From an uncultured Caulobacterales bacterium (lineage in GTDB: Bacteria; Pseudomonadota; Alphaproteobacteria; Caulobacterales; Caulobacteraceae): DNA of 64,000 nt. Shown one piece after another: positions 40,638-42,903 of this stretch. Made by a program: the position numbers and the translations under genes. A model generated the notes under the pieces. That model saw nothing but the letters and a program-made list of their open reading frames with translations, was not told the DNA's origin and did no database searches. Within the stretch, counting starts at the first letter, position 1; each line of letters begins with the position of its first letter. The DNA lies in NCBI GenBank assembly GCA_903862425.1, contig CAIOYC010000009.1, forward strand, positions 248,001-312,000, given 5' to 3'.

Positions 40638-40670
40638 CCGTAAGTTCTGCCGCGTCGCACCAATAGCAAA

Positions 40671-40696
40671 GGGCCGCCGGGTTTCCCCAGCGGCCC
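40671..40696. terminator. Terminator-like hairpin, possibly bidirectional
   Basis: GGGCCGC (40671-40677) pairs with GCGGCCC (40690-40696), and the inner GGG/CCC pairs extend the stem. Toward the minus strand it is followed by TTTGC, toward the plus strand by TTCC. It lies between the lysozyme gene (plus) and the tiny open frame on the minus strand and could serve both. Confidence 0.65.
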
Positions 40697-40760
40697 TTCC
40701 ATCGTCGTGGCCGTCGTCGACAGCCAGTGGACCTGTCGGCCCGGATGACGGCTACGCTGT

Positions 40761-40829
40761 TTAGGCGTGAACCTCGCTCATCGGGCTCCAGGTCACGACT
40801 GCGACCACGGTTGGGGACAATGAGATCAC
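40761..40829 (-). CDS. Candidate 22-residue small protein with a perfect Shine-Dalgarno
   Basis: A 22-codon frame starts at GTG 40829 and stops with TAA at 40763-40761; it begins MISLSPTVV and ends SPMSEVHA. The Shine-Dalgarno AAGGAGGTGATCC is fully complementary to the 3' end of 16S rRNA, with seven bases between AGGAGG and GTG. A promoter-like TTGGCG-18-TACATT lies about 40 bases upstream and a terminator-like hairpin 65 bases downstream. All parts of a small transcription unit are thus present. The alternative is that GGATCACCTCCTTTC on the plus strand is a fragment of a 16S gene end. The peptide resembles nothing I know; a hydrophobic centre (TVVAVVTW) could insert in a membrane. Confidence 0.55.
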   Translation of the reverse strand: MISLSPTVVAVVTWSPMSEVHA

Positions 40830-40866
40830 TGGATCACCTCCTTTCAGCTGTTGAACAGGGACCTCG

Positions 40867-40896
40867 AATGTAGGACCGCTCTTCCGCTTTCGCCAA
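40867..40896 (-). promoter_or_regulatory. Candidate promoter of the tiny gene
   Basis: On the minus strand TTGGCG (40896-40891) and TACATT (40872-40867) are 18 bases apart; the context CCTACATTC also resembles the Caulobacter housekeeping -10 pattern (GCTANAWC). Transcription would start near 40860, about 30 bases before the GTG. Confidence 0.45.
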
Positions 40897-41795: not shown

Positions 41796-42302
41796 CTACT
41801 TCTTCCGGAATTTATCGAGGGAGACGATCTTGGGGCCGTCGTCATCGCCGTCGGGCCTGGGCGCTTCATCCGGATCGGCGGCCTTGGGCGCAGCGCGGAC
41901 AGGCAGGGCCTCCACCTCGGCGACTGTCTCCTCGACGGGTTGGGCGGGGAACTGCAGGCCGAAACCCACCGACGGGTCCTGAAAGCGGGTGACGGCGGCG
42001 TAGGGCACGGACAGCTTCTTGGGCTGACCGTCGAACTTCAGCACCACCGAGAAGAAGGTCTCGCCCGGCGCCAGATCCCAGAACTGGTTCTGGAGCACGA
42101 TCGTCATCTCACCGGGATAACGCGAGACGAGGTCGGACGGTACATCCACGCCCCGGGCGCGGGTCTGGAAAGTGATGTAAAGGTGATGGTCGCCCGGCAG
42201 CCGCTCGGGCGAGGCGGCCTTCTTCAGCGCCTGCTTGATGACGCCGCGCAGGGCCTCCTGGGCCATCTGCTCGTACTGCATCAGGTCGTTGTTACCCGAC
42301 AT
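41796..42302 (-). CDS. sspB: SspB, alphaproteobacterial ClpXP adaptor
   Basis: Adaptor that binds the ssrA tag and hands tagged proteins to ClpXP. The 168 residues start with YEQMAQEALRGVIKQALKKAA, then HLYITFQTRARGVDVPSDLVSRYPGEMTIVLQNQFWDL (tag-binding beta core), ETFFSVVLKFDGQPKKLSVPYAAVTRFQDPSVGFGLQF. A disordered acidic linker and the terminal ClpX-binding motif GPKIVSLDKFRKK close the protein. This is the alpha-type SspB described in Caulobacter. It lies about 170 bases downstream of the tmRNA gene on the same strand. Confidence 0.95.
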   Translation of the reverse strand: MSGNNDLMQYEQMAQEALRGVIKQALKKAASPERLPGDHHLYITFQTRARGVDVPSDLVSRYPGEMTIVLQNQFWDLAPGETFFSVVLKFDGQPKKLSVPYAAVTRFQDPSVGFGLQFPAQPVEETVAEVEALPVRAAPKAADPDEAPRPDGDDDGPKIVSLDKFRKK

Positions 42303-42373: not shown

Positions 42374-42467
42374 GGTGGCGGGATTCTGTCGACAGGCTCC
42401 CCGAAAGGCGGAGGGGTTCGGTCGCCACCTCCCTGTAGAGGTGGGGGATTCTGTTGCCAGGCTCCCC
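42374..42467. repeat. Two copies of a 29-30-base imperfect direct repeat
   Basis: Copy A (42374-42402) and copy B (42438-42467) share the core GGGATTCTGT-YG-MCAGGCTCCCC, at a spacing of about 64 bases. Each copy can fold on itself because GGGGG...CCCCC flank the core. They lie between sspB and ssrA. They may be part of the tmRNA 3' processing region or a dispersed intergenic repeat. Confidence 0.55.
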
Positions 42468-42469
42468 CG

Positions 42470-42780
42470 GGCCCCGCCTAGGACTGCTAAGATCCTAGGA
42501 CTTTATACGTGAGTTCGTCAGAACCGCATTACGCGGCGATGGCGTACTCTTGAGCGAAGTTATCGTTCGCAGTTAGTAAATGGGCCGATCGCGGAGGCCC
42601 ATACCGAGAGAAAGCAAACCCCTTTAGACGTCTGTCGATGCTGATCGGCCCCATATTCTTCAGCCAACAATGGCAACACGGCGATAACCCGAGAAGATTT
42701 GGTGGAGCCGCCGGGAATCGCACCCGGGTCCAGTCCGCTTATTATGAGCGCGTTTATCTCCATAGTCCGGCCGAAACCGA
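42470..42780 (-). ncRNA. ssrA: tmRNA, circularly permuted two-piece form
   Basis: On the minus strand the acceptor piece comes first: it ends with T arm CCGGG-TGCGATT-CCCGG and GGCTCC-A-CCA, its CCA being at 42702-42700. After an intervening loop of about 47 bases the coding piece begins GGGGCC at 42652, which pairs with GGCTCC to close the acceptor stem. The tag frame (42570-42529) encodes ANDNFAQEYAIAA plus TAA, closely like the Caulobacter tag. A 7-bp hairpin CCTAGGA...TCCTAGG follows at about 42499-42477. The outer ends (near 42780 and 42470) are estimates. tmRNA rescues stalled ribosomes and tags their products for ClpXP. Confidence 0.93.
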
Positions 42781-42903
42781 ACAGAGTTGATATAGGCGCT
42801 TCAAAGCCGGGAGGGAAGGCGGCTTACGTGGCGACACGGTTGCAAGCCGTCGCCGGCTTCGCCATACCCTTGTTTCCAACGAGACCAACTTGGGAGAGAT
42901 GGC

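Follow-up and report, generated by a model that had tools for sequence, protein, structure and literature searches.

Landt 2008 is said to be the likely source of the name CC2171, and we take CC2171 to be one of the 27 earlier C. crescentus non-coding RNAs (ncRNAs) cited by Schrader 2014. In Rfam, the family RF01867 carries the description line 'caulobacter sRNA CC2171', and that line is the part of the entry drawn on here. One match to RF01867 is found in the list of small RNAs (sRNAs) of Mesorhizobium huakuii, in the portion of that paper available (PMC5596092), and the family is named in the accessible text of the Rfam 15 paper among those improved with R-scape (PMC11701678). Excerpts of Schrader 2014, which cites 27 earlier ncRNAs, report that Shine-Dalgarno (SD) sites are sparse in C. 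crescentus, being present at 24.6% of the genes (PMC4117421). Small RNAs with a tiny open frame have been described in Sinorhizobium, where peTrpL, from rnTrpL, is presented as a functional peptide in the available sections of two papers (PMC7298713, PMC10117765), and in Rhodobacter, where Pos19 is termed a small coding RNA in the excerpt consulted (PMC5036791).

The window (the whole stretch of 64,000 nucleotides that was analysed) contains on its minus strand a full match to RF01867 at 40670..40853 (92.7 bits, E 6.9e-18, cut-off 75), in which the covariance model is aligned over positions 1-159 of 159, is not truncated and lies above the gathering score. That the locus belongs to the RF01867 (CC2171) family is practically certain, and the statement in an earlier note on this DNA that no described gene was known here has to be withdrawn, since RF01867 covers the locus above the cut-off. 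The same note had described a complete-looking small transcription unit, and all of its parts can indeed be read on the minus strand. A -35-like hexamer TTGGCG (40891..40896), read from the sequence and below the level of a strict scanner, is separated by an 18-nt spacer from a -10-like hexamer TACATT (40867..40872), and a leader of 30 nt follows (40830..40859), its start at 40859 being placed from the -10 spacing alone. The block GAAAGGAGGTGATCCA precedes the GTG at 40829, which opens a frame of 22 codons ending in TAA (40761..40829, MISLSPTVVAVVTWSPMSEVHA; the stop at 40761 is also in the list of open reading frames, and the locus bears the labels L005 and L151). An intrinsic-terminator-like hairpin of 14 pairs with a GAAA loop and a short T run (40668..40699) closes the unit, as seen in the fold of the window RNA and in a test on the family.

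A strict scan of the window element for a consensus sigma-70 promoter and for a terminator detected neither, so at this locus we infer both from the family. A TTG at roughly the -35 distance is shared by many of the 28 covariance-model homologues (judged by eye and uncounted), and TANNNT lies 26-28 nt 5' of GAAAGG in 12 of the 28, the window included. A strict terminator criterion was satisfied by 111 of 138 family elements and by 16 of 498 control positions; it supersedes an earlier lenient criterion, which 141 of 142 elements passed and which had no control. These sets are nested: at least 119 loci found by an exact pattern gave 114 with more than 330 nt of downstream sequence, which with the 28 model-found homologues make 142; four were left out for a frame outside 12-33 codons or for want of a terminator candidate, giving 138, and one further element was too long for the analysis of fold openness, giving 137.

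Conservation in relatives, which the earlier note had proposed as a check, was borne out: in the genome of origin and 40 relative genomes, RF01867 was matched at E<=0.001 in 28 of the 41, 13 of these being above the cut-off, and frame, SD and terminator recur across the class. The family model reaches its gathering score in 6 of 18 chosen loci. Single representatives of the Sphingomonadales, Rhodobacterales and Mesorhizobium forms scored 46.9, 37.6 and 33.8 bits, under the cut-off of 75, and against the other Rfam families none of the three gave an E-value <0.15. BjrC68 (RF02353) was considered as a candidate and rejected, its match being below its own cut-off and confined to the terminator end.

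The most striking part of the element is its SD region. The earlier note had reported 13 bases fully complementary to the 16S 3' end; the complementarity stands, and its length has to be corrected to 17 nt, since GAAAGGAGGTGATCCAG (minus strand, 40829..40845, its final base being the G of the GTG) is the perfect complement, read from 40845 to 40829, of the 16S end GGCTGGATCACCTCCTTTC. This 16S end was seen in 7 of 25 assemblies (the own assembly and 24 relatives), the own assembly not being among the 7; GAAAGGAGGTGAT is present once in the whole own assembly, at the element locus, so that the 16S end of this genome was apparently left unassembled. The duplex of the window element with the 16S end is predicted at -35.0 kcal/mol, compared with -21.4 for the best and -13.3 kcal/mol for the median of 41 crudely called window genes, and with -27.2 kcal/mol for the best other 25-nt stretch on either strand of the window (taken in steps of 5); at other places in the window no complement to the 16S tail is longer than 11 nt. 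The SD is thus even more extreme than had been claimed, and a complementarity of 17 nt is far beyond chance. The unpaired 16S tail begins after the last 16S helix; the complement covers this tail, stopping one base short of the start codon, and exceeds what canonical initiation needs.

The conservation of this stretch can be judged from the 28 covariance-model homologues, which were picked without use of the sequence pattern. With the window included, all 15 bases of GAAAGGAGGTGATCC are retained in 20 of the 28, and GAAAGGAGGTG in 27. Eight homologues vary: seven differ only at start-proximal bases, and in the eighth, L028, the SD is broken.

When genome contigs were scanned for exact copies of GAAAGGAGGTGATCCNRTG, at least 119 loci came up, and the 80 titles listed among them cover, as assigned from those titles, Sphingomonadales, Rhodobacterales, Rhizobiales, Acetobacterales, Rhodospirillales and Caulobacterales. 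Two loci labelled as Phycisphaerales (L045) and as a betaproteobacterium (L102) show the 15-mer and a start codon with short frames of 12 and 32 codons; they could be misbinned or unrelated. In a draw of 289 genomes of the class, GAAAGGAGGTGATCCNRTG was present in 42, one apiece, and the reversed pattern in none. In a draw of 299 genomes of the phylum the shorter AAGGAGGTGATCCNRTG was found in 47 of 86 Alphaproteobacteria and in 1 of 213 others, being absent, at the sensitivity of an exact pattern, from 39 of the 86. One genome, G466, has two places with AAGGAGGTGATCCNRTG, one of them ahead of a 187-codon frame. When 299 genomes drawn from the phylum were searched with RF01867 itself, 55 had a match, every one of them alphaproteobacterial; provided that the two 299-genome draws coincide, this is 55 of 86 class genomes and 0 of 213 others, with 31 of 86 lacking a match. 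Four of the 55 (G052, G316, G591 and G282) have two matches. G052 carries two CC2171-type elements, the one found by the exact pattern and a stronger one, L187 (1441-1700), with the sequence GAAAGGAGGTGATCGAATG; in their best matches (L185 and L190), G316 and G591 have GAAAGGAGGTGGTCGAATG, variants outside the exact pattern. As far as these genome draws indicate, the element is usually present once per genome in many Alphaproteobacteria.

A long SD by itself proves no special function, since on viral contigs the same 19-base SD pattern mostly stands before unrelated frames: in 22 of 27 cases the frame is unlike that of the element, 12 of these frames having 54-397 codons. Three viral loci (L216, L220, L228) have the pattern before a hydrophobic-looking frame of 28-29 codons, MTVDR..LAFY, and two others (L211, L213) before a common 13-codon frame, MAKGKGKGKGGKC; both kinds are seemingly unrelated to CC2171. 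The remaining five viral contigs (L206, L207, L214, L218, L227) hold apparent copies of the bacterial element, which are probably host flanks or prophage-borne. A further observation concerns Rhodobacterales-type loci (L059, L075, L030), where TTGACA and then a palindrome-like CACAAAATCTGTG were seen by eye about 25-55 nt 5' of the 15-mer; its position in the presumed promoter suggests a regulator site.

What follows the SD was analysed in 142 class genomes by a search for GAAAGGAGGTGATCC followed by 14 unconstrained bases and a base other than T, with no start codon required. The pattern occurred 41 times, 23 of them in 16S genes (identified by eye from the following bases A(G/A)(C/G)CGCA) and 18 elsewhere, and in the same genomes the reversed pattern occurred 0 times. 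In all 18 non-16S cases an NTG stands one base after the 15-mer (17 ATG or GTG, one TTG). As judged by this count, the start codon is selected. The frame that it opens is 14-26 codons long in 106 of 114 elements, compared with only 23 and 21 for the two shifted frames read to their first stop; it ends in TGA in 56, TAA in 33 and TAG in 25, and its second codon is Ser in 102. In the MSHG-type (Sphingomonadales-type) group, named like the other groups from peptide type and from the record titles shown (80 of at least 119), it is exactly 18 codons in 28 of 30 elements and 19 and 20 in the remaining two, and exactly 18 codons are also found in 19 non-MSHG elements, mostly Rhodobacterales by title. 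In the window element and in L014 one base is inserted after the GTG, yet the frame still numbers 22 codons and places TW at codons 13-14, as L001 does; the shift has thus been compensated.

The RNA is also strongly folded. The window RNA reaches -99.2 kcal/mol, with z -5.18 and none of 200 shuffles equally stable, and the group mean z ranges from -3.9 to -5.6 over 137 elements, the terminator hairpin being included in both measures. A closing helix, H1, joins codons 3-5 to the bases just before the terminator, with the consensus CATTGTC:GACAATG; in the window its arms are CATTGTC, inside codons 3-5 (40816..40822), and GACGATG (40700..40706), both on the minus strand, as given by the fold of the window RNA and by covariation. 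The covariation was measured on 30 chosen Caulobacterales and Rhizobiales-type sequences, in which 96.7% of 210 cells are paired (0 of 500 shuffles as high) and seven cells are changed on both sides (0 of 500 shuffles); weaker measures are the three pairs with two-sided change (30 of 500 shuffles) and six further pair types (38 of 500), and helices slid along the sequence are paired in 18-58%. These alignments are selections: A1 consists of the window, L014 and 28 of the 44 MSHC elements, A2 of 20 of the 30 MSHG elements and A3 of 17 of the 19 of Rhodobacterales type. The MSHG counterpart of H1, CATGGTTCAGC:GCTGACCATG, is nearly invariant and hence uninformative by covariation.

The helix was also examined by swapping strands between elements. 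Compared with the average over swaps between groups, the native duplex of early codons and pre-terminator bases is stronger in 29 of 30 MSHG, 30 of 44 MSHC, 12 of 19 Rhodobacterales-type, 12 of 22 MSS, 5 of 7 Bradyrhizobium and 10 of 16 other elements, and same-group swaps equal the native duplex save in MSHC, in the 'other' group and slightly in Bradyrhizobium. Against shuffles, few native duplexes outdo 48 or more of 50 (MSHG 9/30, MSHC 12/44, Rhodobacterales type 2/19, MSS 3/22, Bradyrhizobium 0/7, other 3/16). We claim H1 for the MSHC and MSHG groups only, since the swap test supports the helix just there and is weak against shuffles. The predicted accessibility of the ribosome-binding region likewise differs between groups. 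The SD is more open than its control in 37 of 43 MSHC, 17 of 22 MSS, 21 of 30 MSHG and 13 of 16 other elements, and in none of the 19 Rhodobacterales-type or the 7 Bradyrhizobium elements. In the Rhodobacterales type a CACCTCC-like stretch lying 3' is predicted to pair with the SD, and a hairpin to enclose the start codon; the predicted openness of the start codon is 0.07, compared with 0.44 when the downstream sequence is shuffled, and in Bradyrhizobium 0.00 compared with 0.33. The start codon being predicted as paired in these two groups argues against free ribosome capture there.

A strongly folded RNA that Rfam annotates as an sRNA might be a base-pairing regulator, its G-rich 5' end or another exposed part pairing with C-rich sRNAs or mRNAs and ribosome binding being secondary (a dual-function RNA or a sponge). 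A sponge RNA is known in Caulobacter, where CrfA acts against SisA-D according to the available part of that paper (PMC12559287). We regard this explanation as unlikely, if the most serious of the alternatives, because a sponge requires neither the start codon nor the fixed stop that the family keeps, and because the complement fits the 16S end including its GATCC, 16S rRNA being the sole pairing partner examined by sequence. A weak further point against it is that the string CC2171 is absent from two Caulobacter Hfq papers, whose naming uses CCNA_R numbers that are unmapped to CC2171.

Could the element instead be an ordinary tiny mRNA, whose peptide is the functional product and whose long SD merely makes that peptide abundant? 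The conserved start codon, SD and stop would be expected of it, peptides are alike inside groups (MSHGSA.. being an example), and in the pair formed by the window and L014, whose rows were read by eye, roughly one in two base changes within the frame is synonymous, which alone would permit some constraint. Larger comparisons point the other way. In 156 distinct frames of 12-33 codons with the five common second codons, viral loci and the first four codons being excluded, pN/pS was 1.11, 1.73, 1.20 and 1.00 at 0-8, 8-16, 16-25 and 25-40% divergence (27, 39, 119 and 244 pairs, the pairs within a bin sharing sequences), and the same pairs showed no third-position excess; shifted frames gave 0.53-1.25 in this test. 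Between groups the peptides have little in common past Met-Ser, and a Pfam search with the window peptide gave no match. By these substitution ratios the peptide is under no purifying selection, and a functional peptide as the reason for the element seems rather improbable to us. Selection appears to act on start, frame length and stop, and not on residues, since the frame is conserved while pN/pS is at least 1. The conserved start, frame length and stop suggest translation, but the peptide is not conserved; in our view the element is very probably translated, and the peptide is probably not its main product. The peptide may still have a role that does not depend on its sequence.

The position of the locus was as the earlier note had placed it, between a lysozyme gene and rusA: a RusA gene lies upstream, and a gene with a Phage_lysozyme domain lies downstream in convergent orientation. 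Further out in the window are a 4HBT thioesterase gene, the gene of the SspB adaptor (minus strand, 41796-42302) and a permuted alphaproteobacterial tmRNA gene (minus strand, 42440-42821), the latter two less than 2 kb from the element. RusA is found near the element in the window (L005) and at five further Caulobacterales loci (L001, L002, L009, L014, L022), and SspB at L002, L005, L009 and L014, all of the family of the window. When 14 window-neighbour proteins were searched by tblastn at 145 of 147 loci (L011 and L015, which lack the pattern, were left out, and L001-L028 span only about 1.5 kb on each side), none was a regular neighbour outside the Caulobacterales. A link to ribosome rescue, considered from SspB and the nearby tmRNA, was dropped, as these neighbours do not recur elsewhere. 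In the Bradyrhizobium form (L074, L085, L090, L094, L117, L138), a 14-codon frame ending in KRCHLAGIAR has a tRNA-Gly gene at a distance of about 220-305 nt; in L143, of Bradyrhizobium type, this distance is about 2.5 kb.

Such neighbourhoods leave little room for a cis-acting attenuator or leader of the next gene, even if the layout with its terminator is like that of a leader peptide and the next gene is co-directional in 16 of 19 Rhodobacterales-type elements. In the window the lysozyme gene beyond the terminator is convergent, and crude gene calling on 138 elements puts the next gene past the terminator in opposite orientation in 70 and on the same strand in 60, with none inside 600 nt in 8; with this mixed orientation, and with no regular neighbours at the loci searched, the element looks free-standing, and a leader is very improbable. 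We read the locus, a member of RF01867, as a small mRNA that stands on its own and is about 190 nt long. Coincidence, or a fragment that has strayed from an rRNA operon (the latter named in the earlier note as a possible refutation), might be thought of since in the class draw the 15-mer otherwise occurs only in 16S genes, but can be set aside with near certainty, because only 17 nt match and the sequence beyond them is unrelated to 16S, no rRNA family reaches its gathering score anywhere in the window, and the locus is a scored RNA family that recurs across the class.

Three options had been offered at the outset: the micropeptide is weakened by pN/pS of at least 1 and the cis-acting leader by the mixed orientation, and a ribosome decoy or regulatory RNA gains. 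Our preferred reading, to which we give a probability of roughly 0.42, is that the element could be a small mRNA whose translation, and not its product, matters, engaging the 30S subunit through the 16S 3' tail. Engaging 30S would be the most economical function, since the element holds constant what is read by a ribosome, namely its docking site, start and stop, and varies in the peptide. We propose that free 30S subunits would bind the RNA through its exceptionally long SD:anti-SD duplex, that a bound 30S would start on the tiny frame, that translation would melt the H1 helix closing over codons 3-5, and that the ribosome would terminate at the stop and leave the RNA. Engagement and release would be the output, titrating or reading out free 30S subunits and switching the fold or the lifetime of the RNA, with the peptide as a by-product. 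The comparison speaks directly to complementarity, start, frame length, stop, fold, terminator and distribution, and from these we infer binding, translation, release and purpose. Titration or sensing of 30S subunits is a function that we put forward tentatively. More speculatively, the element might be a dedicated mRNA mimic in many Alphaproteobacteria, a substrate on which free 30S subunits, perhaps those newly matured, are tested or sensed, with the translation cycle as the signal; this we hold to be doubtful.

The start-proximal variation in 8 of 28 homologues and the absence of the element from 39 of 86 class genomes by pattern, or 31 of 86 by RF01867, weaken the reading as ribosome capture. 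Translation of the element is in turn made less likely by the finding, in the available part of Schrader 2014, that most C. crescentus ncRNA regions are untranslated; two earlier predicted ncRNAs are translated in the same data (PMC4117421). If the proposal is true, a class in which SD sites can be sparse retains one RNA with a near-maximal SD over deep divergence, selection sees the act of translation rather than the peptide, and the element would offer a way to learn how cells gauge or retain free 30S subunits.

Among described systems, lambda bar minigenes and the RNAs that trap 30S subunits work by stalling or by tRNA drop-off. They resemble the element in having a very short frame and a ribosome site able to tie up translation factors, and differ from it in this mechanism, of which the window family shows no evidence. 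The rnTrpL/peTrpL of Sinorhizobium and Pos19 of Rhodobacter are likewise small RNAs with a tiny frame; as a dual-function sRNA, peTrpL has a functional peptide, whereas the peptide of the window family is without purifying selection, and by pN/pS the element lacks the functional peptide that a translated frame of a dual-function sRNA would encode. For the Bradyrhizobium sRNAs BjsR1-10, no link to the element was found in the accessible text (PMC5082802). The extended SD of Staphylococcus aureus shares with the element a 16S pairing that passes CCUCC toward the start codon, but, in the sections available, it consists of two extra pairs at a predicted ~30% of initiation sites in ordinary mRNAs, compared with 15-17 pairs in one dedicated small RNA here (PMC13009471).

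The closest system is CC2171 itself. Sequence, 5' block, closing helix and terminator of RF01867 all agree with the window element; the difference lies in what is said of the family, since the entry, known from its description line and from the model alignment, has in that line neither the complement of the 16S tail, nor the conserved start and stop, nor the class-wide spread. In the open-licence literature we found no paper linking RF01867 to the 16S tail and none treating the family class-wide, and a literal search of the same literature for forms of the SD-plus-start sequence and for one reverse complement gave nothing related. The gene is known as RF01867; an RNA spread over the class, with a mirror of the 16S tail and an open frame that is kept where its peptide is not, is new relative to the open-licence literature searched, and RF01867 could be remade so as to cover the class.
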